Positions 31,014 through 57,540 of a DNA stretch of 64,000 nucleotides are shown here, in pieces. Positions within the stretch are counted from its first letter, which is position 1. Each line of letters opens with the position of its first letter. The stretch covers positions 3,732,001 to 3,796,000 of the forward strand of contig NZ_CP055157.1 in the NCBI RefSeq assembly GCF_013367775.1. The letters run 5' to 3'. The notes below the pieces were generated by a model. That model worked only from the letters and a program-made list of their open reading frames with translations. It did no database searches and was not told the DNA's origin. The translations under genes were made by a program, and so were the position numbers. Source of the DNA: Microbulbifer sp. YPW1. GTDB taxonomy: Bacteria > Pseudomonadota > Gammaproteobacteria > Pseudomonadales > Cellvibrionaceae.

Positions 31014-31049
31014 GCCCTGACGCTCTCCCCGTCGTCAGGGCTTTTTTTT
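31014..31049 (+). terminator. Strong plus-strand terminator with no recognised upstream gene
   Basis: Stem gccctgacg / cgtcagggc, ten-base loop, then eight T (31042-31049). It overlaps the 3' end of the minus-strand metallopeptidase-like gene. The T run is on the plus strand only, so it does not serve that gene. Confidence 0.85.
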
Positions 31050-32309
31050 GCCCGCAAGAAATGTGCGTTCGAGCTGTGGAATCTCCATTCCGGCAGCCTG
31101 CTCAGCGAGTGTACGAAACTTCTCCAGGGTGATTTCTCCGCGGTCCACGGCGATAGTGCGCACCACATCGTCCAAACTTTTCTCTCCATTGCTGGATTTC
31201 TGAATTGCCTCGTCAATCTCGGACAACAAGACCGCAGCCCTGGCGGTGGTTGGGCCGGATGAGCGCTTGACCAGTAGATCGGGAGATTCTTTTCCCCACT
31301 TGGCCAGGTCGTCCAATGCCTGCAGGTAACGCTTCTGGCTGATGCCGCCGGTGCGGCGCAGAGTTTTGAGGGAGTAGTATTCCGCGATGCCCTCCACAAT
31401 CCAGTCGCTCTCCTTGTCTCCCCGAATTCCTGTAGCGACATGAACCAGCTCGTGCAACATGCTGCTGGTGCGATTTCCGGAAATCAGTGGCCGGTCTGCA
31501 TGCATAAACAGCGAGCGAGTACCCGACAGACCACCACGCCACATGGGGTCTCCCGCCATGACGATCAGAAGTTTGTCCGGGAATTGTGGGAACACCTTTT
31601 TCAATTCAGGCAGGGTCCAGCTGAGGAAAGCCAGGGTGTCCTGCCTGCGCAGGCCTTTTCCCAGAGGGCCTGCAACAACCGTGTCAGTGCCGCCGATGAT
31701 GTCTTGGCGGCTGCCAATTTTCCCAGCGATCATCCAGCCTTTCGGTCGGATGAAGCGGCGGCCCGGGTCCTTTAAGGTAAAGGTGTCGGGCTTTTTCTTC
31801 TCATAGGGCAAGAGTACATTCCAGTCGTCCGGCGCTTCTATTTCCAGTGTTGCTCTGGATTGAAGGTGCTTCGGTGCTCGGGCGGAGATTGGCGGAATAA
31901 GCTTGTCGCTGCGCAGGATGGCCCACTTGTCAGTTATCCGGGAGTCGTATCTACCGGAAGATTTTTTTGCGTCAATTACGAATTGATAGCGGATGCCATC
32001 GCGCGCACCGCTCGGTATCCAGGTGGCCTTGTCATCTTCTATTGTCAGATGCTCGCCTTCCAGAGCCGTGTGTCGCTCCGGATCAAGGTGGAGGGTAAGT
32101 TTGCTAGGTAGTTCTTTTCCGGAGAGTGTGATTTCCACATTCGCCAAGCCGCTGCCTGGGTCGAGTTGCGCCTTGTAGCCAATGTCGTAGTACTGCTTCT
32201 CCACATCCGCTGCCGCTGCCGCCACTCCGGGGAATATACTCGTTAACACGAACAGCGTGGTGGCTATGGCGGCACGGCAGGAAAATATAATGCGCAACGT
32301 ATGAAACAT
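31035..32309 (-). CDS. Exported HExxH metallopeptidase-like protein
   Basis: 424 residues with a signal peptide (ATTLFVLTSIFPGVAAAAA). A beta-rich N-terminal half is followed by MLHELVHVATGIRG and, 14 residues past the second zinc histidine, WIVEGIAEYYSL. This HELVH plus downstream Glu arrangement is that of gluzincins (M61/M1-like). The three metal ligands are present, so it is probably an active periplasmic or secreted peptidase. It lies downstream of the pyrroline carboxylate reductase gene in the same direction (116 bases), so it may belong to the hydroxyproline/collagen locus. The exact family is uncertain. Confidence 0.75.
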   Translation of the reverse strand: MFHTLRIIFSCRAAIATTLFVLTSIFPGVAAAAADVEKQYYDIGYKAQLDPGSGLANVEITLSGKELPSKLTLHLDPERHTALEGEHLTIEDDKATWIPSGARDGIRYQFVIDAKKSSGRYDSRITDKWAILRSDKLIPPISARAPKHLQSRATLEIEAPDDWNVLLPYEKKKPDTFTLKDPGRRFIRPKGWMIAGKIGSRQDIIGGTDTVVAGPLGKGLRRQDTLAFLSWTLPELKKVFPQFPDKLLIVMAGDPMWRGGLSGTRSLFMHADRPLISGNRTSSMLHELVHVATGIRGDKESDWIVEGIAEYYSLKTLRRTGGISQKRYLQALDDLAKWGKESPDLLVKRSSGPTTARAAVLLSEIDEAIQKSSNGEKSLDDVVRTIAVDRGEITLEKFRTLAEQAAGMEIPQLERTFLAGKKKP

Positions 32310-32425
32310 GAATTCTGTCTGGCTCCGTTACCAATGGGCGGCAGGTACATCTTATGACCGCAGGCAAGGTTAACAGTGCCATGACAGGCTTTTCAAAGAC
32401 TTATCGGAGCCTGGGTGGGTAAAAA

Positions 32426-33379
32426 TTAACCCGCACTGCTGCCTGATTCGACGCGCGCGTGTACCAGGCTGGCAGCGACCAGGTCCTCAAGGGCGTGCCC
32501 TACTGACTTGAAGCAGGTAACCCCTGTGCGCTCCGCGGGTGCTGGGGATTTGCACAGGGAGGGGAGGTCGCCGAGGACCGATTGCGGGGTAATTACACCT
32601 TCAGCAATGGGAATCGCCAGATCGCCGGTCTCGTTCAGGGCGTGGGGCATTACATCAGCATAAAGGGCCACGCGCCGGATTAGCAGATCATCCGCTTCCC
32701 GCATATCCGGCCGGTAGGCGCCTACCAGGTCAATATGCTGCTCCTCTCTCAGCCACTTACCGTAGATCAGCGGCGTTTTGCTCATGGTGGCGCAGCTGAC
32801 GATGTCAGCCCGTTGCATGCCGGATTGAATATCATTGCACAGCGAGACGTCGAAAGATTCGCCCTGCAAAGTGGCTGCTACCGCCCGGGCTTTATCTGCC
32901 GAACGGCCCCAAATCAGCACTTCTTTTATCGGGCGTATACTGGCATGCGCTCGCACAAGCTCGGGGGCGAGTGTTCCTGTGCCGACCATCAACAGGGTGT
33001 TGGCATCGACCGGTGCCAGATAATCTGCTGCCAGGGCTGAGGCCGCTGCGGTTCGTCGCGCAGTGATACTGGCCGCATCCATGACCAACCTGGGGGTCCC
33101 AGTTGCCGCATCAATAAGGGTGTACTGCCCCTGTATGGTCGGTTCATTCTGATTGTCCGGTGCGACCACTACGGTCTTTACTCCCAGATAGCCGTCCGCC
33201 TGCCATGCGGGCATCAGCAGCAGTGTATTTTCGTGATCATGGCCTGCAGAGTATCGGTAGTGGTGGTGGTGCCGTTGTGGTACCTGCACCCTTTGTTCGC
33301 GAAATGCCTTTCGCAGTGCGGAGATGAGTTCCGGATACTCTAGCGACTGGTGGACAGTGTTGGCATCAATGTACTGCAT
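32426..33379 (-). CDS. Ornithine cyclodeaminase family protein, probable delta1-pyrroline-2-carboxylate reductase
   Basis: 317 residues. The family fold is shown by PTIQGQYTLIDAATGTP, MDAASITARRTAAASALAADYLA and the nucleotide-binding GTGTLAPELVRAH. A run HHHH near residue 37 is only a local oddity. Members next to a trans-3-hydroxyproline dehydratase (LhpI type) reduce pyrroline-2-carboxylate to L-proline with NAD(P)H. Here the dehydratase frame ends 33 bases upstream, so the two steps form an operon. True ornithine cyclodeaminase is less likely from this context. Confidence 0.85.
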   Translation of the reverse strand: MQYIDANTVHQSLEYPELISALRKAFREQRVQVPQRHHHHYRYSAGHDHENTLLLMPAWQADGYLGVKTVVVAPDNQNEPTIQGQYTLIDAATGTPRLVMDAASITARRTAAASALAADYLAPVDANTLLMVGTGTLAPELVRAHASIRPIKEVLIWGRSADKARAVAATLQGESFDVSLCNDIQSGMQRADIVSCATMSKTPLIYGKWLREEQHIDLVGAYRPDMREADDLLIRRVALYADVMPHALNETGDLAIPIAEGVITPQSVLGDLPSLCKSPAPAERTGVTCFKSVGHALEDLVAASLVHARVESGSSAG

Positions 33380-33412: not shown

Positions 33413-34452
33413 TCAATCGAGCAAAAAACCGTTTTTAAGCGGATCCAGTGGATCGATATAGAAACGGTGTTGACCGGTCATATGTGCGGTGCCGCTGATT
33501 TCGGGAACAACCGCCTTGTGGCCAGCATAGTCGGTGTTTCTACGATACTTCCCTGAAAACTACTACCGGTGATGCTCTCTACGGTCAGCGTCTGGCTGGC
33601 TGATAATTTTCCCTGGGCCAGGTGCAGCGCGAGTCTTCCTGCCACGCCAGATCCGGTTGGGGATCTATCCAGGTCACCATCGGCAAAAATGCACACGTTG
33701 CGACTGCAGATGCTGTCGCCACCGGAGCTAGACGCTGGGTTCCTGGAAAGCGCTCGCATATCCATAAATATGGTGCCGTACAAGAAACCGAGATCCGGCT
33801 GGTCAGGATGTTGGATTGAGATACCCTGCGCGATCACGGCTTTTTTGATGGCGCGTCCGGCAGCGATCAATTGCTGCGTATTTTCGGGGAGGAGCGGGAA
33901 GGGGAGCTGGTTGGCATCCACGTACGCGTAAAACGCACCGCCGTAGGCAATGTCGTAACGAATGTCGCCGAGGTCCGGTACGGTGACTTGCTGATTCTGG
34001 GCGAGACTGAAGGATGGAACACAGAAAAATCGCGAGGAAACCACATGTCCGTCGGCGTCTGTTCTCGCGAATGCGCGAATACGCCCACAGGGAGCATCAA
34101 TAACCACGGGTGTTTCACTGCCTGGCGGGCGGGCCTCGACCCAGCCCATTTCCACTGCCAGCTTGGCCAGTGCTATCACAGCATGACCACACATGGTGCT
34201 GAAGCCTTCATTGTGAATAAAGATGGCTCCGAAGTCCGCGCCATCGTCATTGGGCGGCACCAGTATCGCGCCATACATATCCCGGTGTCCGCGCGGCTCC
34301 CACATTAGGGCAGTGCGCAGGTAATCGAAGTGTTCGCGAGCGTGCTTTCTGCGAGCCAACACATCTTCGCCCTCCAGCTCAGGAAAACCCGCAAGAATCA
34401 CTCGTAACGGCTCGCCACCGGTGTGCATGTCGATAGTGTCGATCGCCTGCAT
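33413..34452 (-). CDS. trans-3-hydroxy-L-proline dehydratase (proline racemase family), frameshifted near the 3' end
   Basis: Proline racemase family. The first catalytic Cys is present in STMCGHAVIAL (near residue 88); the second is replaced by Thr in DRSPTGSGVAG (near 266), the pattern of trans-3-hydroxyproline dehydratase rather than epimerase. The product would be pyrroline-2-carboxylate. As sequenced, the frame ends at 33478 with a foreign tail (ATRRLFPKSAAPHI). In the next frame, from about 33536 to the stop at 33413, runs the family C-terminus: AVVPEISGTAHMTG, then FYIDPLDPLKNGFLL. One base is missing near 33535-33538. The ATG at 34452 gives a family-like N-terminus; 34524 is the alternative. 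A TTGNRYRCAA site lies upstream. Confidence 0.85.
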
Positions 34453-34547
34453 AGCGCCTGCCATGGGCGGAACGCACCGGTGGACGCTTTTTTTGATTAA
34501 TTCGAACGCGCTTTCCCGTGCCATATGAATCTGCCAGCAATATTATA

Positions 34548-35555: not shown

Positions 35556-35632
<77 letters not shown>

Positions 35633-36624: not shown

Positions 36625-36727
36625 GGGCGATACTGCCTGTCTTCTGTAAATTTATTACCTCTTTCCCGGCCCACCAGCGAATCAGGCCGTGAGGGCAGGG
36701 CTGAAAATAATAGCAAGTGTTGGCTCA

Positions 36728-37600
36728 ATGACCATTACTGAATTTATCAAATCTGATGTAAAAGCCGTTCTCCAGGCGGAAGGCCAGTTGCCGTACAAGC
36801 TGACCCTGGGCGCTATGTCGGAGCATTACAAGGTCAGTTTGACACCGGTACGTCATGCCGTCGATGAATTGGTAGAAGAGGGCGTAATCCGTCGCAAAGA
36901 CAACGGCCGTCTGGAAGCGCAGCCCGAAGTATTGAAAGGGGTGAAACTGGAGACCCCTAAGGCCGATGCCACTGAGCACAAGCTGTACGATGAAATCCGC
37001 GAGGATGTCATTGCGAGAAGCCTGAAGCAGGATACCGAATACCTGCGCGAGCAGGCCACCGCAGAGCAATACGGCGCTGGCCGTACCGTGGTGCGGCAGA
37101 TTTTTTCGCGCCTGGCCGGGGCGGGATTGATCGAACATGTGCCGCGCTGCGGCTGGCGGGTGCACCCGTTCAGCGAACAGGACATGCACAATTATCTCGA
37201 TATTCGGGAAATGCTGGAACTGAAAGCGCTGGATCTCGCGCGCGGGCATTTTACCGACGAAGAACTGCAACAGTTACTCAAGGCAAACCGCCCGGCCACT
37301 GGCGCCGCGCAGTCTGAGCTGGATTTTGATCTGCACGACTACTGGATAAAACGCTGCGGTAATCGTTACATTGAAGAGTTCTTTGAGCGCTACAGCCCTT
37401 TCTACAATGCCCTGTTCAACTACGCGGTTATTGATGAAAAAGTGAAGCGGGAAATGGCGCGCGAGCACTGCGATATCGTGGAGTGCCTGTTGGCGAAAGA
37501 CTGGAAGGGCGCTCGTAAAGCGTTGAGCGCCCATATCCGTGAGCAGCGGGAAGCGGTATCCAGAATGATCGCGTTCCTGAACGAAAAGCAGTCCGCCTGA
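36728..37600 (+). CDS. GntR/FadR family regulator with two winged-helix domains
   Basis: The ATG at 36728 is chosen as start (MTITEFIKSDVKAVL); an upstream in-frame start would add 13 unlikely residues. The 290-residue product has one winged helix at about 10-65 (LTLGAMSEHYKVSLTPVRHAV ... GVIRRKDNGRLE) and a second at about 85-145 (LREQATAEQYGAGRTVVRQIF ... GLIEHVPRCGWRV). An FCD ligand-binding domain follows at about 150-285. Most FadR-type regulators have only one winged helix. It converges on the 4-hydroxyproline epimerase with five bases between and is the only regulator inside the catabolic set, so it probably controls it in response to hydroxyproline or an intermediate. Confidence 0.88.
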   Translation: MTITEFIKSDVKAVLQAEGQLPYKLTLGAMSEHYKVSLTPVRHAVDELVEEGVIRRKDNGRLEAQPEVLKGVKLETPKADATEHKLYDEIREDVIARSLKQDTEYLREQATAEQYGAGRTVVRQIFSRLAGAGLIEHVPRCGWRVHPFSEQDMHNYLDIREMLELKALDLARGHFTDEELQQLLKANRPATGAAQSELDFDLHDYWIKRCGNRYIEEFFERYSPFYNALFNYAVIDEKVKREMAREHCDIVECLLAKDWKGARKALSAHIREQREAVSRMIAFLNEKQSA

Positions 37601-37605: not shown

Positions 37606-38589
37606 TCAGCCGATGCCGTGGGCGAACGGATCTTCAGGGTCCAGGATAATACGGCATTCGGCACTGATATAAGCGCTGCCGGTTATGGTGGGAATCACTT
37701 CTATCCTGCCATCCCGAGAAGCGGGTAGTGCTTTAACCCTGCCTTCAAAAACACTGCCAATGACGCTCTCCTGACGCCACACGTCACCTTCCTGGATGAT
37801 CCCGTCCGCATACAAACAAGCCAGTTTTGCACTGGTCCCGGTGCCGCAGGGTGAGCGGTCATACGCGTTACCGGGGCACAGCACAAAATTCTTGCTGTCC
37901 GCTTTCGCGGGATCAGACGGCGGCGCGAACAGTTCGATGTGATCGATCTCGCCACCGTCTTCACCGAGGATTTGGTTTTCTGCCAATGCGACTCGCACAC
38001 GATGGCAATAGTCTGAGAGCTGGTCTGTATTGTCTACATCGACACGCAGGCCGTGTTCGCCAATCAGAAAGAACCAGTTTCCTCCCCAGGCGATATCCCC
38101 AGTGACCGTTCCCAAACCCTCTACATCGAGAGAGACAGATTTCCGATAACGATAACTGGCAACGTTATCCAGGCTCACCCGGTGGTTGTTGTGCAGGACA
38201 AACGATACTTTACCGACCGGAGTTTCCAGCTGGTGTTCACCCGGTGCGATCAATCCCTTGCGGGCAAGGGTGACAGCCAGGCCGATGGTGCCGTGGCCGC
38301 ACATACCGAGATAGCCGACATTGTTGAAAAAGATAACCCCGGCAGTGCACTCCGGGTCCTGAGGTTGGCAAAGCAGGGCACCGACCAACACATCGGATCC
38401 GCGAGGTTCGCGGATTAGTGCAGCACGCAGGTGATCGAAGTGCTCGCGAAACTGCACCAGTCGTTCAGCCATGCTTCCGTCACCCAGGTCGGGACCGCCG
38501 TCCACGATGACGCGAGTGGGCTCCCCGCCGGTATGGGAGTCTACGACTTCGATACTGTGATTTACGGTTTGATTCTTGTCACCGAACAC
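37606..38589 (-). CDS. 4-hydroxyproline 2-epimerase (proline racemase family)
   Basis: A GTG at 38589 is chosen as start: GGAGAG precedes it by six bases and the family N-terminus ([18 protein letters not shown]) follows; the open frame further upstream overlaps the previous gene. The 327-residue product has both catalytic cysteines, in [11 protein letters not shown] (near 92) and [13 protein letters not shown] (near 247), and the GTGTSA triad typical of epimerases on hydroxyproline. It converts trans-4-hydroxy-L-proline to cis-4-hydroxy-D-proline in the cytoplasm. It is the third gene of the deaminase-dehydrogenase-epimerase operon. Unlike the dehydratase paralogue, its C-terminus is intact. 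Confidence 0.93.
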
Positions 38590-38644
38590 GATAACTCTCC
38601 GGATTATTCTTATTGTCGCCGTTAGCTGAATGGATTCAAAGTGG

Positions 38645-40219
38645 TCAAAGTGGCGCTTTGGTCCATTCACCGTCCACCAGGCGCCAGGCTCCTGTCGGAT
38701 TCTCATCCTGCAGTGCTGGGGGCAGTCGATGGGCACGCACGTTGTCATAGCAATCGAGCTTGCTAAAACGGGTCAGCGAGGCCGGGATTCCTACCGCGGT
38801 AAAGCCGGGATGCCCGGATGCAGGGAAGGGACCACCGTGATTCATCGCCGGGGAGACCGCGACACCCGTGGGCATCTTGTCATTCAGCAGCCGGCCAACC
38901 TTGTTCCGCATTACCGGTTCGATCTGATTGTAATCGGAATCGTCGCTGTCATCCCGCGCAGAGTAGATACAGCCGGTGAGGTTGCCTTCGAGGGCGCCGA
39001 GAATCTGGCGGGTCTCGTCAATACTATCGCTCTCTACGATCAGCGCGGTATTGCCAAATGCTTCAGTCTGGCAGCGCTCTGGCTGCTGGAGAAACGCCTG
39101 ACCGGTAACGCGCAATAGCGTATTTGGCCGTGAGACTCGGGTTGGATCTGCAGTGGTGTTGTCTGTGAGGCATGTTGCCCCGGCGGTTTGCAATTCTTCT
39201 ACGGCGCGGCTCAGGTTGGTTTCGACACCGGCGCTCAGCAGGGTGCCTACCGGGCTGCTGTTGAATCGTTCCACGCAGAGATTCACAAACTGCTCCGCGT
39301 CCTTCCCCGAAGGCAGGATGACCAGACCGGGATTGGTGCAGAATTGCCCGGTTCCCATTAAGCAGCTACTGGTGAATTCTTCGGCGAGCTCATTGCCGCG
39401 CTCGCGCAGTGCTCCCGGCAGAACAACCACCGGGTTGATGCTGGAAAGCTCGAGATAAATAGGGGTGCCCACCGCATCCGCAACCTGTTTCAGCGCGAGG
39501 CCAGCGGCGCGGGACCCGGTAAATGCGGCTGCCCCGGTGCGGCTATCGCCGACCATTTTTAAACCGTCCGCGCGGCTGGTCGCGTACAGCATCTGTACGG
39601 TAGCCAGGGGAAGTCCGGTTTCTTTGATTGCCTGCAGCGCCAGTTTTGCCAGCATCAGGCAGGTACCGGGATGTGCCGAGTGCGCCTTGGCGATCACCGG
39701 ATTGCCAGCGGCTACTGCTGCGGCAAAATCACCACCGGCCAGGCCATTGAATGCCAGGGGGAAATTGTTCGGGCCAAAAACGATAACCGGTCCTATGGGG
39801 CCGTGCAGGCTGCGGATATTTGCCGCGGTATCGATCGTGGCCCGCGCCCATGAGCCGTCTGCGGCAGCGCTTGCCGCCTGACGCAGTTGGTTGGTGGTGC
39901 GTGGCAGCTCTACCTCAAGCAGGCGTGGTTTTACCGGCAAGCCGGTTTCCTCGTGTGCCCGAGCGCAAATGGACTCTGCTTCGGCTTCAATAAGCTCGGC
40001 AAATCGCTCGAGGAATCGGGCCCTTGCCTGTGCCGGGAGGGATTTCAACTCTTGTGCGGCTTGCTCCGCAGCGTCCAGTGCAGCGTCGCAATCCGACCAG
40101 CTGGACACGGGATACTGGTGTTCTATTGGAGCGCGGGTAGACGGGTTGGCGGGCTGAAAGCGGCCGGATTCGGCCGCTTGACGCCACTCGCCCGCTATCA
40201 GAACGGGGGCTGAGTACAT
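38645..40219 (-). CDS. 2-oxoglutarate semialdehyde dehydrogenase (2,5-dioxovalerate dehydrogenase)
   Basis: The ATG at 40219 follows GGAG by eight bases; a GTG six codons upstream is the alternative. The 524-residue product is an aldehyde dehydrogenase: cofactor region [17 protein letters not shown], catalytic Glu in YLELSSINP and nucleophile Cys in [10 protein letters not shown] (near 293). The FGPNNFP form and the [10 protein letters not shown] end match the KGSADH type of hydroxyproline and sugar-acid pathways. It oxidises 2-oxoglutarate semialdehyde to 2-oxoglutarate, the last step of 4-hydroxyproline use. It lies 23 bases after the deaminase gene. Confidence 0.93.
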
Positions 40220-40242
40220 CGCAAATTCTCCACTCACTGGTC

Positions 40243-46743: not shown

Positions 46744-46781
46744 TAATAAATATCGAGAATAAACCGAGGGTTATAGAGACT

Positions 46782-49736
46782 ATGGAAATCAAAAAAGGAC
46801 TACTGGCGCTCGCCATTAGCGCCACCTTGGGCAGTACCGCCGTATTGGCGGCGGATACTTCAGGGGGGACCCTGAAGGGGCAGGTAATCAGTGCGCGCGG
46901 TGAGGTCTTGGCCGGCGCTGAAATTACTGTGACGCACATCGGCAAGGGATTTACACGCACGGTCACCAGTAACGCAAAGGGTGAATACAACCTGCGCAAT
47001 TTGCCAGTGGGCGAGTACACCCTGCGTTTTGAAAAAGAGGGTTACGACACAGCGAGCACGCCAGAGGTGCTGGTGCGGGTGGGGCAGGCCGTTGTCTACG
47101 ACGGGACACTGGCCGAACCCGGGGAAGTGTTGGAAATCGTTGAAGTGACCGGCAGCATGCGGCGTCCGGTCGATACCGGCTCCTCCACCGCGGGTGTCGT
47201 CATCACCCAGGAGAAGCTGGAACTGCTACCGGTCAATACCGGATTTGAAGCGATGGCGCAGCTTGCACCGGGTGTTGTGAGTGCCGGTGGTAGCAGTTTC
47301 AACGGTGCTTCCAGCTTCGGCGGTGCGTCCTCTGCGGAGAATGGCTATTACCTGAATGGATTGAATGTATCCAATATCAAAACCGGGCTTGGTTCCATTG
47401 CCCTGCCGTGGGAGGCCATCAGCCAGACCCAGGTCAAGACCGGGGCGATCGACCCGGAATTCGGCGGTGCCCTGGGAGGGATCATCAATGCGGTCTCGAA
47501 GTCTGGTAACAACGAATTCAATTTCGGCTCACAGCTGCGTATGGACCCGGATGGATTGCGCAGCCAGCACAGTTCGGTGCGCAATGCGGCCGGGGAGTAC
47601 ACCCTCAATACCGAGCAGAGCGAGATGGATTTCCACGAGGCGCAGGTGTGGGCCAGTGGCCCGATTGTTCCCGACAAAGCGTTCTTCTACGCCTTGTACA
47701 GCCCGCGCAAAACGGACGATCAATGGGCGAGCGGCTCCAGCTTTTACGATCGCACGCGGGAGGAAGACCGCTGGTTGGTAAAGCTTGACTGGTTTATCAA
47801 CGAAGACCATGCAGTGGACTTCACCGCTATCAATAATGAAGAAAATGGTGAATACCAGAGCTTTTCCTATACTCCGGATCAAAATCAGGTCGGCGATTAT
47901 CTCGGAGAAACCAAAAGTCGAGAGGGCGGCCAGGTATACGGGATGCACTACAACGGTCGCCTGACCGATGCACTTACCGTGGACCTGACCGCTGGCCGTA
48001 CCCAGGAGACGGTATACAACTCTGCCCTGAACAACTTGCCTTCCGTGTACGACTGTCGCGCTACCTGCGTCAGTTTCAGTAACCACAGTGATTCGACGAT
48101 TTACGACGAGGACTATATCCGCGATCAGGTACGTCTGGATTTGAGTTATGACCTGCTGGATCACGCCATCAAGGTGGGCGTGGATCACAGTACCGTGGAT
48201 GTGTTCTATCAGGAAAACCAGAACGGCGAGGGCGACGCCCGCGGCTGGTGGCAACAGCGTCTCGCCACGGACAACGATCCCTCTCTGCAGCCGCAGGGCA
48301 CAAGTCTCGTTCAGCGCCGGATTCGCGTACGCGGTACCGACTCAACGGTAAGTGCAACGGCGCTCTACCTGCAGGATTCGTGGACGGTCACCGATGATTT
48401 CACCCTGAACCTCGGTGCCCGCTACGAGCAGTTTGAAAATACCGTAACCGGTGGGGAAGCCTTCGTGAAAAATGAAGGTATCTCGCCGCGAATCCAGGCA
48501 ATCTGGGACTTTAACGGGGACGGTAACAGCAAGGCGTTTGCCACTTACGGGCGCTACTACCAGCCGGTTTCCGCCAACATGAACATCACTCAGGGTTCTT
48601 ACTCCCGCGAGACGTTCGATTATTACGAACCGGGAACCACCGACACCGGCGGCCGGGTCGCTTTGAACGAAGACGGCTCACCTAGCCGTGGTGACCTGCT
48701 GCATAGCTACGTGCGTCAGCAGGGTATTGTGGAGCCGGAACTGATTGCCAGCGGTAATCTCGAAGGTATGTACTCTGACGAGTTCACCCTCGGTATGGAA
48801 ACACTGGTGCTGGACGGTATGGTACTTGGTGTTCGCGGTGTATACCGGGATCTCAAGCGATCGGTGGAAGACTCGGATATTGGCCCGGTACTGAGCAATT
48901 ATCTGGAAGCAAATGGTATCGAGGATAACGTTGGCCAGAGCAGCTATTACGTACTACTTAATCCCGGTGAAGACGTCAACATCCGCTATGACTTTGACGG
49001 TGATGGACAGCCAGACAGCGTGAGCCTTTCTGCCGAAGAGCTGGCACTGCCCAAAGCGTCGCGACGGTATCTCGCACTCGAGACATCCCTGCGTGGCCAG
49101 GTTAGCGACCAGCTGTTCCTGGATGCTTCCTATACGTGGTCGCACAGTTACGGCAATACGGAAGGACTGGTACGGACTGACAACAACCAGGCCGATCCGG
49201 GCTGGACCACATCTTATGATTACGCCGACCTGATGGACCACGGATACGGTGATCTTCCCAATGACCATCGCCACGCTTTCAAACTGAATGGCTACTACGA
49301 TCTCAGTGATGACCTGACCTTTGGCTTTGTTACCTCACTGGTTTCCGGGCGGCCGCAGAACTATTTCAGTATTCATCCTGCAGGCGTGGATAGCTGTGCT
49401 GAGGGCAGTCCCTGGAGCGACTGCATCAGTCAGTACTACGGGGAAGCTTCGTTCTATGACGAAAGCGGCAACCCGGCACCGCGTGGCTCGGCCGGTAACC
49501 TGCCCTGGAGCAAGCAACTGGATTTGTCCCTTGCCTATCGTATGCCGCTATTTGATGGAGATCTCTTGCTCAAGGGCACCATCTACAATGCGCTGAATGA
49601 CGATGCACCGTTGGATGTCAACGAGATCCGCTCGGTACAGGGCACCAATGGGCTGGAAATCAATCCGGACTATGGACTGACTGAAATGAGAAGTCGCGCG
49701 CGTTACTTCAGTCTGGTGGCCCGCTATGATTTCTGA
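46782..49736 (+). CDS. TonB-dependent receptor, Oar-like, with carboxypeptidase-regulatory domain
   Basis: The ATG at 46782 opens a signal peptide (KKGLLALAISATLGSTAVLA-AD); in-frame sequence upstream is promoter DNA. The 984-residue product has a CarboxypepD_reg/CNA-B-like N-terminal domain (LKGQVISARGEVLAGAEITVT, residues about 28-110), a plug domain (VEVTGSMRRPVD onward) and a long beta barrel ending in FSLVARYDF. Receptors with this N-terminal domain usually carry large or peptide substrates in proteobacteria. Divergence from a POT peptide transporter and the shared operators suggest uptake of collagen or gelatin peptides. Substrate is inference. Confidence 0.9.
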   Translation: MEIKKGLLALAISATLGSTAVLAADTSGGTLKGQVISARGEVLAGAEITVTHIGKGFTRTVTSNAKGEYNLRNLPVGEYTLRFEKEGYDTASTPEVLVRVGQAVVYDGTLAEPGEVLEIVEVTGSMRRPVDTGSSTAGVVITQEKLELLPVNTGFEAMAQLAPGVVSAGGSSFNGASSFGGASSAENGYYLNGLNVSNIKTGLGSIALPWEAISQTQVKTGAIDPEFGGALGGIINAVSKSGNNEFNFGSQLRMDPDGLRSQHSSVRNAAGEYTLNTEQSEMDFHEAQVWASGPIVPDKAFFYALYSPRKTDDQWASGSSFYDRTREEDRWLVKLDWFINEDHAVDFTAINNEENGEYQSFSYTPDQNQVGDYLGETKSREGGQVYGMHYNGRLTDALTVDLTAGRTQETVYNSALNNLPSVYDCRATCVSFSNHSDSTIYDEDYIRDQVRLDLSYDLLDHAIKVGVDHSTVDVFYQENQNGEGDARGWWQQRLATDNDPSLQPQGTSLVQRRIRVRGTDSTVSATALYLQDSWTVTDDFTLNLGARYEQFENTVTGGEAFVKNEGISPRIQAIWDFNGDGNSKAFATYGRYYQPVSANMNITQGSYSRETFDYYEPGTTDTGGRVALNEDGSPSRGDLLHSYVRQQGIVEPELIASGNLEGMYSDEFTLGMETLVLDGMVLGVRGVYRDLKRSVEDSDIGPVLSNYLEANGIEDNVGQSSYYVLLNPGEDVNIRYDFDGDGQPDSVSLSAEELALPKASRRYLALETSLRGQVSDQLFLDASYTWSHSYGNTEGLVRTDNNQADPGWTTSYDYADLMDHGYGDLPNDHRHAFKLNGYYDLSDDLTFGFVTSLVSGRPQNYFSIHPAGVDSCAEGSPWSDCISQYYGEASFYDESGNPAPRGSAGNLPWSKQLDLSLAYRMPLFDGDLLLKGTIYNALNDDAPLDVNEIRSVQGTNGLEINPDYGLTEMRSRARYFSLVARYDF

Positions 49737-49998: not shown

Positions 49999-52848
49999 TC
50001 AGAACTTGAGCTGGGCCCCCGCGTACAAGGTGCGTCCCAGCAGCGAATAGTTGGCTGAACCATAGGATGTGTAGGGATGGTCGGTCCAACGCTCATCGCT
50101 CAGGTTGTTGACGCCCAGGTACAGCTGCGTCGATTCCACAATCTGGTATCCCGCCCACAGATTGAAGTAGAGGGAGTCTTTTACTTCACTGCTTTCGTAG
50201 CGCTCTGCGCGGCCATCCAGGTCAATAGGCCCACCCTGGGTAAACTTGGTGGTCAGGCTCACCGACAGATCATTCAGGTAGTAGCTGGTGCGAAGATCCG
50301 CTTTCCATTTGGGCACGCCAAACTCGCCGAGATAGTCCGTGGTTTCCAGCTCCCCGGTAAGGTTGTTGGTGGCAGAATAGGAACTCTCCAGCTGACGCGT
50401 AGTGACGAGGTTAAACCGCATATCGCCGGGCAGATTGAACGCGTCCACCAGGCTAAACTGGTAATCCGCTTCAATATCCACACCGGTGCGGCGTGAGCCA
50501 TCCGCATTGATGTAGGTATCGCGGACGGACTCGACATCGCCGCTCGCGGCGCGCACAACCTGGGTACAGAAATCGTTGTTAACACTTTCCGAATCCACGC
50601 ACAGCGCCAGGGTGTTGCTCGCTCCAAAGCGCACGATCATGTCGGTCAGATCGATATCGTAGTAGTCGATTGAAATATTGAGGCCATCGATGGACGACGG
50701 CGTGAATACAAAGCCCGCGGTAAAGGTCGTCGCATCTTCTTCCTTGAGATCCTGGTTGCCCTCAGAAATTACCCGGCCACGCTGGCCCTTGAGGTTGGAG
50801 TCCCAGCCGGCATCGATACCCAATGCGGCGCAGTTGGCGGCGCGGCGACCGTCGGCGGGGCCGCCATCAATTTCATCGGCATCACAAGGGTCGGTCAGGT
50901 CGGTATAGCCGATACTGGTACCGAGGTACATTTCGCCCAGTTGCGGGGCGCGCACGGCTTTGGAGTACACAGTGCGGAAACGCAGGCTGTCGTTGATCGC
51001 CCAGTTAAGCCCGGTTTTCCAGCTGGTAAAGTTGGCGGCTTCGGTGGAGTATTCTGCACCGCGAACTGCCGCTTCGAACTCCAGGCTCTGCATGAGTGGC
51101 AAGTCGGCGAGTAGTGGAACCAGCAGTTCCCCGTAGGCTTCATGAACCGTGCGGCTCACGTCATCAATGGCGGTTTGCTGGGAGCTCAGTACGCCGGATT
51201 TCCACAGCTCGGAAGGCTGGTAGTCGAGGCTTTCGTAGCGAGATTCAAAGCCTGCACCGAATTTCGCAAACCCCGCCGGCAATTCGAGCAGATCCCCCGT
51301 CAGGTTTGCAGCGAATGCATGCTGCTCCACATCCGTATTGGTGGTATGGGTGGCCATGACGTAGTCGTGTACAGCGTCAGACGAAGGCGTAAATGGTGAG
51401 AAGTCCGGGCAAGTTCCGTCCTCTACACAAGGGCCGATCAGGGTGAAATTACTGCTGTCTAAACGGTCGTAACGCAGGCTATTGCCCTGGGTGAGCTGGG
51501 AGTCCGTCATGCCGGTATTGAAGTAGGTGTCCCATTTCCAGCCATTTTTAAACTCGCCTTCGAGGGTTGCGCTGACCGCGACATATTCCCGCTCGGTGGT
51601 ATGCCAGCGGGGGCCAGCATTGGAGAAGGTATAAGGCAGTAAAAGCCAGTTGTCGCCGTAGTCGGACAATACCTGCTGCACACCGGTGGGTATGGCGATG
51701 CCGTTTGACTCAAGATCTTCAACCGTCGTCCAGGTACCCCAGATAAAATCGGGATCGATTTCATCGTAAGACTCGGTCTTCGAGTACATAAGGTCCGCTG
51801 AGAAGCGCGTAGTGTCGGTCAGGTCATAGGTGACGCGACTGTAGCCATTCAAGCGCTCGAACGGGCTGCGGGCAAAGTTGTACGCGTTGGGATCGTAACC
51901 ACTGCCGTCGGTTGCCATCCATCCCTGGGAAAGGGCAGACGCTGGTGTCCTCAGTTGCGCCTGATCACCATTCAGCTGGTACCAGTCGCTTTCGCCGTAT
52001 TCCGGATTCCATACACCAAAAGCATTTCCGGTGATATTGAAGTCCGGGTAGGTGATGTTGTTGTGGATGATGAAATCCGGGATACCATCTTCCGGGCCCG
52101 TATTTTCCGGGTTGGGAATATAGCGTGTGCGGCCCGCAGCACTTTCGCGATCGCGATAGTAGAGAGGCTTCTGCTCGAAGTAGTCCAGGGATAAAGCGAA
52201 ATTACCGCGGTTGTCTGCAAAGTTTTCACCGAAGGTGAAAGTGAGGGATCCGTTGTCCGCGCCACCTTCTTCGGTGGTGCCCAGCTGGGTCCGCACGGAA
52301 ACACCCTCATAGTTGTCTTTGAGGATGAAATTCACCACACCAGCGACCGCATCGGCACCGTAGACAGCGGATGCACCACCGGTCAGCACCTCTATGCGCT
52401 CCACCAGTTCCGCGGGAATCATGCCAATTTCGGTGACCATGGTGTTGTTGTCACTGGTGATCTGCACCGGGCGGTGCCCGTTTACCAGCGACAGGGTCCG
52501 TTTGACGCCAAGGTCCCGCATATCCAGCGCATTGAGGCCGGAGTTACCAAATGAATAGCTGCCACTGGTGGCATCGTAGCCGGAACCAAACTGAGGCATG
52601 GTCGAGAGCACCTCGTTCAGGTTCAGCTCACCGGTCATCTGAATCGCTTCTTTATCGATCACCGATGTGGGCGATGGCGTATCAAAAGTGGAGCGCTGAA
52701 TTCTCGATCCGGTTACCACCAGTTCCTCGACGAGCGCTGCATCCCCGACATTGCTGTCGGCATTGTCGTTCGTCGCGGATTGTGACAGGGCGGAATGACT
52801 GGCGGTCGCCGCAATGGCGATGGCCAGCAGTTTCTTGGAGGTCTGCAT
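49999..52848 (-). CDS. TonB-dependent receptor
   Basis: 949 residues with a signal peptide (KLLAIAIAATASHSALS). A TonB-box-like ELVVTGSRI follows at about 42, then the plug domain (PTSVIDKEAI ... ELNLNEVLSTMPQFGSG, LVNGHRP, IEVLTGGASAVYGADAVAGVVNFI) and a beta barrel ending in LYAGAQLKF. AAGGGG precedes the ATG. Two putative operators lie 33 and 72 bases upstream. It sits between the Oar-like receptor and the collagenases, so uptake of collagen-derived oligopeptides is a reasonable guess. The plug is the TonB-dependent type used for diverse peptides, sugars and siderophores. Confidence 0.92.
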   Translation of the reverse strand: MQTSKKLLAIAIAATASHSALSQSATNDNADSNVGDAALVEELVVTGSRIQRSTFDTPSPTSVIDKEAIQMTGELNLNEVLSTMPQFGSGYDATSGSYSFGNSGLNALDMRDLGVKRTLSLVNGHRPVQITSDNNTMVTEIGMIPAELVERIEVLTGGASAVYGADAVAGVVNFILKDNYEGVSVRTQLGTTEEGGADNGSLTFTFGENFADNRGNFALSLDYFEQKPLYYRDRESAAGRTRYIPNPENTGPEDGIPDFIIHNNITYPDFNITGNAFGVWNPEYGESDWYQLNGDQAQLRTPASALSQGWMATDGSGYDPNAYNFARSPFERLNGYSRVTYDLTDTTRFSADLMYSKTESYDEIDPDFIWGTWTTVEDLESNGIAIPTGVQQVLSDYGDNWLLLPYTFSNAGPRWHTTEREYVAVSATLEGEFKNGWKWDTYFNTGMTDSQLTQGNSLRYDRLDSSNFTLIGPCVEDGTCPDFSPFTPSSDAVHDYVMATHTTNTDVEQHAFAANLTGDLLELPAGFAKFGAGFESRYESLDYQPSELWKSGVLSSQQTAIDDVSRTVHEAYGELLVPLLADLPLMQSLEFEAAVRGAEYSTEAANFTSWKTGLNWAINDSLRFRTVYSKAVRAPQLGEMYLGTSIGYTDLTDPCDADEIDGGPADGRRAANCAALGIDAGWDSNLKGQRGRVISEGNQDLKEEDATTFTAGFVFTPSSIDGLNISIDYYDIDLTDMIVRFGASNTLALCVDSESVNNDFCTQVVRAASGDVESVRDTYINADGSRRTGVDIEADYQFSLVDAFNLPGDMRFNLVTTRQLESSYSATNNLTGELETTDYLGEFGVPKWKADLRTSYYLNDLSVSLTTKFTQGGPIDLDGRAERYESSEVKDSLYFNLWAGYQIVESTQLYLGVNNLSDERWTDHPYTSYGSANYSLLGRTLYAGAQLKF

Positions 52849-53088: not shown

Positions 53089-54873
53089 TCATCCGAGATG
53101 GCGGTGTTGTTCTCCGGCGGAGAGCTCCAGCGGCTGGAGATAGTCGCGATATAGGTAGCGGTATAGCCGGCGCGGTAACTTCTCCGGCTCAGCGGCCGTT
53201 TTTTCTGTACTCGCTCTTTGTGTTAGCCAGTCGGCAAAGGCCGGTTGCAGGGTATCTGCGAGTTTTTCGAGCTCCGCCGTATAGCCTTCGAAATCGTCAG
53301 CGCGAAGGTGGTCGGCCAGGCGTGACAAGTGGCTTCGGTCCTGTTGGTACAGGAACTGGATGGCGAGGTAGCTCCAGGAGTAAACCCGGGTAGAACCGTC
53401 TTCATAGGTAGTGGCAAAGATATCGGCGAGGCTCGGGTATTCCGATGGACGGCTCTTGTTCAGGTCCCGCTGGGCGCTGTCGTAGTCCTCTCCCTGTGCA
53501 ATATAGTTTGCCAGTCCCTCCGACCACCAGACCATGTGACTGGGGAAATGCCCGAAGCCGCCCCGTTTGTTGAATCGGCCATCCAGATAGTGCACGTACT
53601 CATGCTCCAGATTCCAGATGGTGAAATCCGGGTCCTTCCAGAAGGCCTCGAACGCGATGAAGCGCGCCTGATTACCCGGCTCCTCCGGCGTGCCTTCCAG
53701 ATACATGCCGCCATTGTTGGTATTGATATCGAATAACAGCGAGGCGTACTGGTTGTATTGACTGTAATTGTCGAACACGACTACCTCGAGCTTGTTATTG
53801 TGATCTTTGGCTACGGGTTGCCCGTCACTCGCCAGCTTGAAGTGGAAGTCCTGTTCCTGTGCGAGCATCTTTTCACAGGCGCTTAGCAGCGCGGCATCGC
53901 CCATGCTGTTGGCTCTGATTACCAAAGATTCCGAGCAATCGTGGGTAATCGGCAGCGCGATAGATTCATCCGGCAAGGCACAGCGCTCGGGAAATTCCTC
54001 CTCACACGCACTTTTTCCGCGAAACGATGTGACCAGATATGGCCGGGTATACAGTGCTTGTTGCTGTGCCTGGCTCAAGCCAGTGAGGTCTCTGGAAAGC
54101 AACCGCCACACAGTTTCGTCCAGAAGTTTGCCCTGTTCTTCGTCCATCAATAGCTGCAGATTACCCAGTGCCCACAAAGCGTGATTCAGCGGCCAGCTGC
54201 GCTCATCGGTGAATCCATTGTCACTGCGAGAAAAATCGAGCAGCGTGCTTTCCAGGCGCTTGTGATCTAAAAGGGTGTCGGCAATCATTTGGTTGCTGCG
54301 TGCCTGGTAGCCAAGAAAACCAACTGCACGGAGACTCTCCCAAAGGGCATATTGTTTGGGTGCGGATAGATCGCCGCTCTGGTATCGCTCAAGAACCGCG
54401 AGAAGCGTATCCATATGGGGTTGTAATCGGGCGGCCAGAGGGTCCCTGTCGTAGAAGCGGAAGAGGGTGACGGCGAAGTGCTCCTGCAAGCGTGCCGCTT
54501 GGTCGCCGTCCGCGCTGAACGCCGGGTGCTCACGAAGTCTGGTAATTACCGTATCCAGCGTCAGCCACTGTATATGGTCAATGGGTTCGTACGGCCCGAA
54601 GTAGCTGTAGGCGCGCAAAAAATACAACAGCCGGTCCACCTCGCCGAGGTCGGGATTCGATGTGGAGAGTAATTGGCCGAGATGTTCAATGGATCTGTGA
54701 AAATGTTCGGGCGTATGGATATCGCCGGTTTGCCACAGTTGACTGTCGGGGGAAAGTATTTGGGCAACTTCGTCATTCGTGCCTTGCTTGAGGCTGCAGG
54801 CACTGATGATTACCGCCACGATGGCGGAGAGTAAAGTGAACCTTGTAGGTAGAGAATATATGGAATACATCAA
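53089..54873 (-). CDS. M9 family collagenase, lipoprotein
   Basis: 594 residues. The N-terminus has a hydrophobic segment ending in a lipobox-like ISAC (near residue 26), so the enzyme is probably surface or periplasm anchored. The M9 N-terminal region fills about 40-380, with LEVVVFDNYSQYNQYASLLF and NTNNGGMYLEG. The zinc motif HEYVHYLDGRFN lies near residue 424 and the third ligand in WWSEGLANYI near 449. No PPC or PKD domain follows. It cuts collagen or its gelatin peptides. It lies 96 bases after the larger M9 gene in the same direction, probably an operon. A cell-bound enzyme would keep products near the uptake receptors. Confidence 0.92.
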   Translation of the reverse strand: MMYSIYSLPTRFTLLSAIVAVIISACSLKQGTNDEVAQILSPDSQLWQTGDIHTPEHFHRSIEHLGQLLSTSNPDLGEVDRLLYFLRAYSYFGPYEPIDHIQWLTLDTVITRLREHPAFSADGDQAARLQEHFAVTLFRFYDRDPLAARLQPHMDTLLAVLERYQSGDLSAPKQYALWESLRAVGFLGYQARSNQMIADTLLDHKRLESTLLDFSRSDNGFTDERSWPLNHALWALGNLQLLMDEEQGKLLDETVWRLLSRDLTGLSQAQQQALYTRPYLVTSFRGKSACEEEFPERCALPDESIALPITHDCSESLVIRANSMGDAALLSACEKMLAQEQDFHFKLASDGQPVAKDHNNKLEVVVFDNYSQYNQYASLLFDINTNNGGMYLEGTPEEPGNQARFIAFEAFWKDPDFTIWNLEHEYVHYLDGRFNKRGGFGHFPSHMVWWSEGLANYIAQGEDYDSAQRDLNKSRPSEYPSLADIFATTYEDGSTRVYSWSYLAIQFLYQQDRSHLSRLADHLRADDFEGYTAELEKLADTLQPAFADWLTQRASTEKTAAEPEKLPRRLYRYLYRDYLQPLELSAGEQHRHLG

Positions 54874-54969
54874 GCGAGATTCTCCAAGCTCTTTTAGTAA
54901 TTTCTTATCGAAGAGTTAAAGGCAGCAACCCCGGCACCAGGCCGGGATTGACTACCCGTTTGCGAGTGG

Positions 54970-57540
54970 TTAATTGGCGATCAGCTGGATGCCGACGTTG
55001 CTGTACGGCTCAGTGGCAACGACCGATATGTAGTACCAGCCAGAGTCCGGTGCGCTCACGGTCAGTGTTTCCTCGTTACCACTATTGGTAGCGCGCTGAT
55101 CGTAATCGGACTCAGTGGCCCAGGTAGCATCGTTCAGATACAGGTCAGCATTACCCTGGCCTCCGAAGAGTTTCACGGTGAGGATGCTGGTTCCTTCCGG
55201 AATGTAGGTGTAGTAATAGTTGAGGCTGCTGCTGTCGGACAGGCAAGTGCTGCTCCCCAGTTCCAGATTCCCGTAGGAAACCGGGGTGCCACTGCAGGAA
55301 AGGGTGCTGCCGGTGACGAAACTGGGCAGCAGGCTGACATCGCTAAATGCCTGGTAGGCTTTCACTCTAACGAACCAGCGACCCTGTTGCGGGTTTTCGA
55401 CATCACAGACTTCCGTATTGCCGCCGATATAGGGACGACATGCGTATTCGGTGTCGGTGGCTTCACTACCGTAGCGCAGGTAAAGGTCCGCATCGCCAGT
55501 GCCACCACTGATGGCTATACTCAGGCTCTCTGTATCTGCCGGGACATCAACGTAGTAGTGCAGGTCTTCTCCGGCAGTTGCAACGGAGATTCCGCTAACT
55601 TCCACATTATTGGAAAGGGCAGTAGGTGTACCGTCACCGCCATTATCGCCACCGCCGTCAGTGGTGCTTTCAACCTGTTGCAGCCAGCTATGCCACTCGC
55701 TGTCGTAAGTGGTGCCGATATTGTTGAGGTAGTTCAGGTAAGCGTCGTAGTCACCTGCGCGCAGGTATGTCAGCAGTTGGACGACTTCGCTGTGGTGCTT
55801 TTCAAACATGAAGCGCACTGCCAGGTAGCCCCAGCGGTATACCCGATCCTGCCCACTGCTGTAGGTGTTGGCAAAAATCTCACTCAGGTTGAATTCCCCG
55901 GAGCGGGCGAGATCTATCGCGGTATCGTTGAAATCCTGTTTGGATACATACTCTGCAAGTCCCTCGATCCACCACACGGTTTTATGGGTGCCGGTACGTG
56001 CATCGCCAAAGCCCCCATACAGGTTGAAGCGGCCATCCAGGTAGTGAACATACTCGTGCGTCAGGTTCCAGACTTCAAAATCCGGACGTAACCAGTCCGC
56101 TTCATGGGCAATGAATCGCGCCTGATTATCAGTACTTGATGGATCACCTTCCAGGTACATACCGCCATTATTGGTGTCGATACCGTAGAACAACGAGGCG
56201 TAGGTGTTGTACTCATCCCAATCGTCAAATACCACCACTTCCAGATCGGTATTCAGGTCATCCGCGACCGGGTTGTAGTTGGTCGCGAGCAGTTGGTGGA
56301 AGTAGGTTTCCTGATCTGCCAGCTGTGAGCAGGAGTCAGACATTTCGGTGCTGCTCATATCCTGCGCGTGGATACGCAGGCTACTGCTGCAAGTGTGTCG
56401 GTCAGCCAGTACCTGTTGCTCCAGATATTCGGCAAATCCGCAGATACCGAAATCATTACAGTCACCGTAGTATTCGGCATTTCCGGCCGTCGCAATCCAC
56501 ACACTTTTGCCAGTGCCGGTCATGCTGTAGCGGTCCAGTACCTGCTGTACCTGGTTTTGAACCGCGGCGTACGCAGGCGCCGTGTCATGTTGCAGAAATC
56601 TCGCCAGTTCTCGTCCGGCGTTTTCCTGCATGAACAAGGCCGAGGAATCCAGCATCCAGTCGGTGCGGGCGAATGCGCCCAGCGACTGCATCAGCTGGGG
56701 ATCGCTGCTCGCGGTATCGACAAATTCCTGGATGTAGTGACCACGAAACAGTACCGTGAAAATGCCATTGACTGCCGCACGCATACTGCTGAAGGAACCG
56801 GCATTCTGATTCCAGCTCTGTAGCCAGTTTTTTACCACTGGGAGGTAGCGCGCATTCTCACCTGCGCTGTCGATCAGTACGATGGCATCGCGGATCGCTT
56901 CCCCGTGACTACTGGATGCACTGTAAAAATCTGGATTTCCGGTAAAACTGTCCAGTGCACCTACAACCGCGCTCTGCACGGCGGAGTCGAAACTCACATT
57001 GTCCGGGTAGTAATACTCGATGTAATAGCCGGTCCGCAGAAAATAGAACAGCTTGTTGACGCTGCTGTCCCCACCTGATGCGACGTAATCTGCGGCCATT
57101 TGTGAGGCGGCATTGGCTACTGTAATCATTTTTTGCGGAGTGAAACTCGCGAAACTATTGCTGTCACCGTCATACAGATCGTTGATACAGCTGGTTTCAG
57201 AGTCGAGGATATGGTTCACCAGCGCCTGGCCGGTGTTTTGCGCATATCCGGTAACCTCACAGGTGGCGAGAGGTTCTGCCATGGTGCTTATGGAGAGCGT
57301 TTGGGGGCTCGACTGCTGTGGTGTAGCAGTGGAAGTAGGGGGTTGATAGCGGGGTTCCACCGGCGCAGTTACCCGTGAGTTGCTCATCGGCGTACTGTAT
57401 TGCTGTGCGCTATTCGCACTTTGTGGCGTCGGGGTTGCCGGTTGCGGTGCGGCTTGCACTTGTGATGCGGCTACTAGCAGTAACCCGGTGAGGCCGGTAA
57501 CAATCGAGTTTACCGACACCTTCTTTAGGTTCGTGATCAT
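54970..57540 (-). CDS. Secreted M9 family collagenase with two PPC domains
   Basis: 856 residues with a signal peptide (VTGLTGLLLVAASQVQA-AP), a Pro/Gln/Thr-rich linker, then the M9 N-domain and catalytic domain. Zinc motif HEYVHYLDGRFNLYGG is near residue 493 and the third ligand in WWIEGLAEYV near 528. Two pre-peptidase C-terminal domains end the protein (residues about 640-740 and 765-856, each with GxADLYL). The architecture is that of Vibrio-type collagenases. PPC domains help secretion or bind collagen and may be cleaved off. Two putative operators lie about 135-160 bases upstream. It starts native collagen breakdown outside the cell. Confidence 0.94.
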   Translation of the reverse strand: MITNLKKVSVNSIVTGLTGLLLVAASQVQAAPQPATPTPQSANSAQQYSTPMSNSRVTAPVEPRYQPPTSTATPQQSSPQTLSISTMAEPLATCEVTGYAQNTGQALVNHILDSETSCINDLYDGDSNSFASFTPQKMITVANAASQMAADYVASGGDSSVNKLFYFLRTGYYIEYYYPDNVSFDSAVQSAVVGALDSFTGNPDFYSASSSHGEAIRDAIVLIDSAGENARYLPVVKNWLQSWNQNAGSFSSMRAAVNGIFTVLFRGHYIQEFVDTASSDPQLMQSLGAFARTDWMLDSSALFMQENAGRELARFLQHDTAPAYAAVQNQVQQVLDRYSMTGTGKSVWIATAGNAEYYGDCNDFGICGFAEYLEQQVLADRHTCSSSLRIHAQDMSSTEMSDSCSQLADQETYFHQLLATNYNPVADDLNTDLEVVVFDDWDEYNTYASLFYGIDTNNGGMYLEGDPSSTDNQARFIAHEADWLRPDFEVWNLTHEYVHYLDGRFNLYGGFGDARTGTHKTVWWIEGLAEYVSKQDFNDTAIDLARSGEFNLSEIFANTYSSGQDRVYRWGYLAVRFMFEKHHSEVVQLLTYLRAGDYDAYLNYLNNIGTTYDSEWHSWLQQVESTTDGGGDNGGDGTPTALSNNVEVSGISVATAGEDLHYYVDVPADTESLSIAISGGTGDADLYLRYGSEATDTEYACRPYIGGNTEVCDVENPQQGRWFVRVKAYQAFSDVSLLPSFVTGSTLSCSGTPVSYGNLELGSSTCLSDSSSLNYYYTYIPEGTSILTVKLFGGQGNADLYLNDATWATESDYDQRATNSGNEETLTVSAPDSGWYYISVVATEPYSNVGIQLIAN

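Follow-up and report, generated by a model that had tools for sequence, protein, structure and literature searches.

A putative collagen utilisation cassette with a tandem winged-helix GntR-type regulator in Microbulbifer sp. YPW1

Gene sets that join collagen breakdown to hydroxyproline catabolism are already in print (PMC5343134, PMC7883544). Leyn et al. (2016) predicted HypR regulons in Alteromonadales, in which hyp genes are co-regulated with three collagenase genes (colA1-3), a TonB transporter, the proline peptidases PrdP, AmpP and YpdF, and a di/tripeptide permease (PMC5343134). Borchert et al. (2021) presented as new a 21-kb collagen utilisation cluster in Colwellia, where an M9 collagenase, a TonB receptor, an MFS transporter, YpdF and PepQ are accompanied by a 4-hydroxyproline epimerase, a D-hydroxyproline dehydrogenase, a deaminase, a ketoglutarate semialdehyde dehydrogenase and a pyrroline reductase (PMC7883544). 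In Streptomyces coelicolor, it has been demonstrated experimentally that the regulator HypR represses both a hydroxyproline operon and an M9 collagenase gene, and that hydroxyproline acts as the inducer (PMC6608401). Here, we analyse a comparable gene set of ~25,000 bases in the marine strain Microbulbifer sp. YPW1. It lies within a 64,000-nucleotide stretch (hereafter the window, G000:C1:3732001-3796000) of a 4.58 Mb genome assembled as one contig. For three window genes, the closest named proteins are all from Microbulbifer.

From left to right, the locus consists of genes for (i) a pyrroline-2-carboxylate reductase, a trans-3-hydroxyproline dehydratase, a cupin, tRNA-Pro, tesB, a GntR-type regulator and a 4-hydroxyproline epimerase, (ii) an aldehyde dehydrogenase, an enzyme of the dihydrodipicolinate synthase (DHDPS) family, a prolidase, a flavin adenine dinucleotide (FAD) oxidoreductase, an M24 peptidase and a POT permease, and (iii) a receptor with a CarboxypepD_reg domain, a second receptor of 949 amino acids (aa), the collagenases M9b and M9a, tetR and DUF1285. 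Family scans were run on the 20 larger open reading frames (ORFs) at 31035-61327, and they matched every gene class listed in the original prediction for this DNA: two M9 collagenases, two TonB receptors, a candidate POT-type transporter, two M24 peptidases, four trans-4-hydroxyproline enzymes and the GntR-type regulator were each found in the expected place. Two of its points stand in part. The trans-3-hydroxyproline branch does have its dehydratase and reductase genes, but the former is frameshifted near the C-terminus; and the proposed span holds all of the listed families, but its first gene (31035-32309) is a neighbour without a family match. Taken together, the sequences make it very probable that these genes form a cassette for the use of collagen, controlled by a single GntR-type repressor, an arrangement for which the repression of a collagenase gene and a hydroxyproline operon by S. 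coelicolor HypR provides a precedent (PMC6608401).

In the proposed mechanism, M9a (secreted) and M9b (probably lipid-anchored) would, judging by family and fold, open collagen and trim it into peptides. Larger peptides would cross the outer membrane via one or both TonB receptors. Di- and tripeptides would enter through the POT permease, and the two M24 peptidases would release proline and hydroxyproline from them. Following the steps of the known pathway, 4-hydroxyproline would then be converted to 2-oxoglutarate by the epimerase, the FAD dehydrogenase, the DHDPS-family deaminase and the aldehyde dehydrogenase. In the promoters of dapA-like/pepQ, permease/receptor, the 949-aa receptor and M9a, the palindrome TTGYRYRCAA would be bound by the regulator, which a hydroxyproline-derived signal would release. 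The joint function put forward in the original prediction is supported by comparative genomics, namely by linkage in relatives and by the palindrome common to the promoters.

The locus shares with the HypR regulons its hydroxyproline genes, collagenases, TonB transport, proline peptidases and candidate di/tripeptide permease; the HypR regulon is, however, a prediction with collagenases mostly in Shewanella, whereas the Microbulbifer genes lie in one physical block with a regulator that has an extra winged helix (PMC5343134). As in the Colwellia cluster, which we located by tblastn in C. psychrerythraea GAB14E (loci L137/L138), M9 genes are linked with an epimerase, dehydrogenases, an MFS transporter, peptidases and a reductase, the enzyme roles being assigned by family and context. 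Microbulbifer differs from Colwellia in its tandem of two M9 types, its regulator built as GntR-GntR-FCD, its two receptors and its insertion as a whole block, and none of the 20 larger ORFs scanned (smaller ones being left out) encodes a secreted cyclophilin-type peptidyl-prolyl isomerase (a Colwellia core member), PutR or a stringent starvation protein. S. coelicolor HypR resembles the locus in regulator type (GntR/FCD) and in the combination of hydroxyproline genes with an M9 collagenase, and differs in its single winged helix, its operator and the lack of linkage between collagenase gene and operon (PMC6608401). A further HypR-like trait is the GntR-type palindrome at hydroxyproline and collagenase promoters (for M9a, in 6/10 genomes). 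Sus-like polysaccharide utilisation loci (PULs) combine an extracellular enzyme, a lipoprotein-type enzyme, a TonB receptor, a regulator and catabolism in one block. Relative to these, the Microbulbifer locus has a predicted protein substrate and GntR control, and there is no SusD family member among the 20 proteins scanned; the SusC/SusD pair of a Sus-type PUL is lacking, despite the TonB receptors. What is new here is the tandem winged-helix regulator, the lipoprotein-type second collagenase, the patchy insertion of the whole block, and the linkage of M9 and hydroxyproline genes in Myxococcota and Streptomyces; no report of this linkage in Microbulbifer or Myxococcota was found in the open-licence papers searched.

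The distribution of the gene set was examined in 48 Microbulbifer genomes (including that of the window). The flanking tetR gene is present in 48/48, the locus regulator in 15 and M9 genes in 12; each of the 12 also has the regulator (p 6.5e-9 by one-sided Fisher test, with no correction for kinship). The genes are not scattered in all close relatives, which would have spoken against a functional unit: every M9 genome has the locus regulator, and in 10 of the 12 the two share a contig and are no more than 21 kb apart. The exceptions are G060, where contigs end, and G023, where they are 1.3 Mb apart. In eight fetched genomes of the 33 that lack the regulator, tesB and tetR are adjacent (0.27-1.3 kb apart in 8/8), while in the window they are separated by 21.4 kb. 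Of the 15 genomes with the regulator, 13 carry the block here (in G060, over two contigs). In the remaining two, G026 and G067, tesB and tetR are adjacent, as at the other empty sites, and the greater part of the block forms a single piece elsewhere, in which the trans-3-hydroxyproline genes adjoin the regulator. Individual genes are missing from some blocks: M9b and the 949-aa receptor from G068; the 949-aa receptor and the dehydratase from G028 and G031; the permease, M24 peptidase and CarboxypepD_reg receptor from G026; and M9a from G067, in which the prolidase is reduced to a fragment (L146 7316-7501). For 22 of the 48 genomes (without G067), a tree of flank genes gives a minimum of seven changes in block presence by parsimony, without distinguishing gain from loss. 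The block appears to have been gained, lost and moved as a unit.

The second line of evidence is the palindrome. As a sequence pattern, it occurs once in the dapA-like/pepQ divergent promoter (41236-41245), twice in the permease/receptor divergent promoter (46689-46698 and 46717-46726), twice upstream of the 949-aa receptor (52881-52890 and 52920-52929) and once upstream of M9a (57694-57703). The window holds seven sites in all, against 1.24 expected, and these are six of them; genome-wide, there are 79 sites, compared with 21 for a reversed control pattern. Because the palindrome was picked after inspection of the promoters, conservation across genomes is the better test. Counting sites within 350 bp upstream in relatives (G067 left out), the palindrome precedes pepQ in 13/13, the dapA-like gene in 13/13, the CarboxypepD_reg receptor in 9/9, the 949-aa receptor in 10/10 rows (9 genomes) and the permease in 11/11 rows (10 genomes). 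It was not found upstream of the flanking genes tesB (0/22), g424 (0/21), DUF1285 (0/24) or r562 (0/22). A site is seen in 9/25 tetR rows, all where the upstream region is common to tetR and a block gene, and in 1/8 reductase rows (G028). Three rows beyond the 350-base limit (DAO in G031; r334 in G022 and G063) are stretch-end artefacts and were excluded as hits. The palindrome is also kept at the M9b and 949-aa receptor genes of G023, 1.3 Mb away (L017), and in the relocated blocks of both G026 and G067. A sweep with TTGTAYACAA, one mismatch allowed, gave no enrichment (7 matches, reached by 16/100 shuffles).

Several observations weigh against a collagen cassette under one repressor. With respect to the palindrome, the excess of six block sites over 0.37 expected is post hoc, the motif having been chosen after these promoters were viewed, and 73 of the 79 genomic sites lie outside block promoters. 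An exact site precedes M9a in just 6/10 genomes (of the four misses, three have a near-site that is off-register, as most near-sites there are, or changed by one base, and the fourth a longer-spaced one) and M9b in just 2/10. No site was found within the counted distance upstream of the regulator itself (0/14), the FAD gene (0/14, with the artefact dropped), the M24 gene (0/10), the aldehyde dehydrogenase gene (0/12) or the epimerase gene (0/15 rows), although several of them could lie inside operons. With respect to the proteins, the aldehyde dehydrogenase reaches a best named-family score of 103 bits, far under the 514 cut-off, and the M9b model matches collagenase modules to a moderate degree (536-549 aligned columns, template modelling (TM) score 0.56-0.60, root-mean-square deviation 7-8 Å, 25-26% identity). 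Finally, three of the 15 regulator-bearing genomes (G008, G022 and G033) have no M9 gene and keep the regulator, epimerase, dapA-like and FAD genes, which argues that the regulator serves hydroxyproline use and not collagen alone.

These three genomes are the basis of the strongest rival explanation, in which the core is a catabolic cluster for hydroxyproline and proline peptides (from plant, algal or sponge material, or from collagen), and collagenases are an optional add-on in some strains. We regard this as rather unlikely: M9 genes are present in the other 12 of the 15, in most cases within the distance given above, and the palindrome is common to the receptor promoters and most M9a promoters.

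The proposed repressor (36689..37600, plus strand; likely start 36728) has two winged-helix GntR domains followed by an FCD domain. From the likely start it is 290 aa long, and its model contains both winged helices (mean predicted local distance difference test (pLDDT) score 87.2, predicted TM score 0.66). The same GntR-GntR-FCD build was seen in 5/5 relatives scanned, one of them from a Gemmataceae metagenome-assembled genome, and relatives of the regulator are carried by some Aliikangiella and other entries. HypR orthologues have one GntR domain and then FCD, a build that the locus regulator does not share; the solved FCD regulators retrieved with its profile match it from residue 94-110 onwards and leave out the first winged helix. 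A profile search of 33 named M9 genomes returned no full-length match and one partial match (positions 71-287). In Microbulbifer, the tandem regulator may replace HypR.

A different regulator, either another GntR/FCD protein or the neighbouring TetR, could in principle own the palindrome, the tandem GntR not being the master. The genome does encode further FCD-like proteins, with six matches to the GntR protein of a Rheinheimera locus (best 31%). In addition, a sister sequence, TTGTATACAA, stands at the divergent FAD/hyp promoter of loci from other gammaproteobacterial genera (L050, L125, L130, L135, L136, L137, L140 and L142), genera whose genomes yielded no full-length match to the tandem regulator; a site of this type was sought and not found in L129, L134 and L139, nor in the actinobacterial L131-L133. 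Against this stands the co-occurrence of the tandem GntR with M9: its 15 genomes cover all 12 with M9 genes. TetR was rejected as the specific regulator, since tetR is found in all 48 genomes regardless of the block; at those empty sites that were examined, both tetR and tesB lack an upstream palindrome. We judge this rival improbable, and return to a cassette controlled by the tandem GntR protein as the best explanation.

Across the class, M9 genes are rare: 3/369 genomes of a class sample have one, the YPW1 genome included. As this sample is too sparse in M9, linkage was examined in named M9 genomes, using 80 loci that are the best-scoring matches and not a random sample. Among these best 80, hydroxyproline-pathway genes occur in the examined flanks of loci from Rheinheimera, Alkalimonas, four Myxococcota and, in 14 cases, Streptomyces. 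A search for Pro_racemase covered 50 of the 80 loci (three Microbulbifer and 27 others left out) and found the family in 45/50 genomes, with a match on the same contig within ~20 kb of M9 in 13/50. By coordinates alone the latter count would be 28/50; it was cut to 13 by contig check and tblastn, the others being coincidences of coordinates (L097 is ~28 kb off). Linkage to a different M9 gene was seen in at least four others (L126, L129, L137/L138 and L144). As a separate observation, L126 and L144 (both Rheinheimera) are modules in their own right, with an M9 peptidase stretch, a racemase-family gene, an M24 gene, a reductase, a permease and a TTGTATACAA palindrome.

The rarity of M9 and the linkage of the set in relatives place the gene set beyond chance; that unrelated genes merely lie close together is extremely improbable, for all that tesB, tRNA-Pro and the cupin gene are interspersed, as in relatives the genes of the block are missing or relocated together and their linkage recurs in other genera and phyla. 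More tentatively, and with clearly less confidence than in the cassette itself, collagen utilisation loci may be recurrent catabolic islands that were put together repeatedly (in Gammaproteobacteria, Myxococcota and Actinomycetota). In Microbulbifer, the island would be a mobile cassette that has a tandem-winged-helix repressor of its own and pairs a secreted with a lipid-anchored collagenase; this pair would hold collagen peptides near the cell for TonB import, as selfish uptake does for polysaccharides. Which bacteria can live on collagen, a major protein of animals, has mostly been judged from the presence of single collagenase genes; a set of genes that are linked and apparently co-regulated makes a better marker. 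Predictions that can be tested directly in cultivable marine bacteria follow from the cassette, the empty site and the compact, operator-like palindrome.

The two collagenases are of different types. M9a (54970..57540, minus strand) is a secreted-type enzyme with an M9_N activator, an M9 peptidase domain carrying HEYVH (the HEXXH of the family) and two PPC stretches (Pfam Peptidase_M9 E 3.8e-111, plus M9_N and PPC). Its nearest solved structures are Vibrio harveyi VhaC (7esi/9l5o) and a Grimontia protein (7wss), and it matches the activator and peptidase domains of VhaC, a Vibrio M9A enzyme (PMC8799719). M9b (53089..54873, minus strand) is shorter and, in contrast to VhaC, has a lipobox-like N-terminus (ISAC) and no PKD or PPC match (PMC8799719). 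It also has HEYVH, and Pfam matches its peptidase part only (Peptidase_M9 E 9.5e-81). Its model (mean pLDDT 86.6) nevertheless appears to comprise an activator-plus-peptidase module: in the PDB it is matched best by collagenase modules 532-533 residues long, and as the model aligns with these, M9b probably carries a diverged activator. This would matter, because the VhaC peptidase domain alone cleaves peptides and not triple-helical collagen (PMC8799719). A lipobox-like start, called by a regular expression and not by a trained predictor, is found in 98/120 listed M9b homologues versus 8/119 M9a homologues, and M9b is probably lipid-anchored. By this count, lipoprotein-type M9 collagenases are a large group, of which no description was found in the literature searched; the Colwellia proteins P0331, P0354 and P0355 group with the M9b type. 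A third M9 gene lies elsewhere in the genome (G000:C1:128361-129119; L024 8182-9222), with a 346-aa open frame and a signal-like start; it has the peptidase domain only, without space for an activator, and similar short M9 genes are present in G028, G031, G060 and G063.

For the uptake proteins, roles are assigned from family and position. One TonB-dependent receptor (46734..49736, plus strand) has the N-terminal CarboxypepD_reg domain; the 949-aa receptor (49999..52848, minus strand) consists of plug and barrel. The permease (45234..46640, minus strand) is a candidate POT/MFS-type di/tripeptide transporter, on which the family profiles differ: it scores 33.6 bits with Pfam PTR2, above the cut-off of 27, but 82.5 with the NCBIfam symporter model, below the cut-off of 130.2, and a higher 102.8 bits with MFS_1 than with PTR2. 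The M24 Xaa-Pro peptidase (44146..45345, minus strand; true start probably near 45237) is YpdF/PepQ-like. The Xaa-Pro dipeptidase (prolidase, pepQ; 41370..42755, plus strand; 534 bits, cut-off 339) is a paralogue, at 46% identity, of a second genomic copy (G000:C1:368684-369976). That copy is the type found genus-wide, and the locus prolidase is near organophosphorus acid anhydrolase/prolidase structures.

Among the hydroxyproline enzymes, the 4-hydroxyproline 2-epimerase type (37606..38748, minus strand) has its domain from residue ~65, and its true start is probably inside the ORF. The hallmark of these epimerases is a pair of catalytic cysteines, which are carried here in MCGHG and SPCGTG; the score of 417.9 bits is slightly below the 442 cut-off. 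Three further steps are proposed from family, context and the known pathway: a D-hydroxyproline dehydrogenase for the FAD (DAO-family) oxidoreductase (42809..44074, plus strand), a deaminase for the DHDPS-family, dapA-like enzyme (40243..41142, minus strand), and an alpha-ketoglutarate semialdehyde dehydrogenase for the aldehyde dehydrogenase (38645..40237, minus strand). Trans-3-hydroxyproline dehydratases are marked by a Cys/Thr pair, and the trans-3-hydroxy-L-proline dehydratase type of the locus (33478..34524, minus strand) carries it (MCGHA and SPTGSG), yet its frame is not intact. The frame ends early, with profile positions 279-324 in another frame at 33425-33562; the TAG counted in this segment was read as lying at its very start, before the shift, which points to a single lesion. 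In G019, G025 and G026, the frame is full-length. The frameshift in the assembly is either a mutation or a sequencing error, and the trans-3-hydroxyproline arm is probably inactive in strain YPW1. The Delta1-pyrroline-2-carboxylate reductase (32426..33379, minus strand; ornithine cyclodeaminase/mu-crystallin family; 369 bits, cut-off 322) sits beyond tesB in the window, yet adjoins the block in G026 and G067.

The tesB, tRNA-Pro and cupin genes, which sit between the regulator and the trans-3-hydroxyproline genes, and the gene at 31035 are not core parts of the set; tesB and tRNA-Pro occur in the empty-site genomes too. A tie between tRNA-Pro(CGG) (35556-35632, next to tesB) and a proline-rich substrate was considered and rejected, as this gene adjoins tesB in 7/8 empty-site genomes and is 2.5 kb away in G010; it may mark an insertion-prone spot. 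The gene at 31035-32309 was likewise rejected as a pathway member, being blank in the family scans and present near tesB in all eight fetched empty-site genomes; its protein has HELVH in a metalloprotease-like setting. In G019 (L006 9254 to L007 4839), ~15.6 kb with tRNA-Pro and several ORFs lies between tesB and the trans-3-hydroxyproline genes. Outside the locus, the window encodes a subtilase (S8) nearby at 26534-27862, with 92-93% identity in G028 and G031, and a YcaO protein with an OsmC-like domain at 535-2736.

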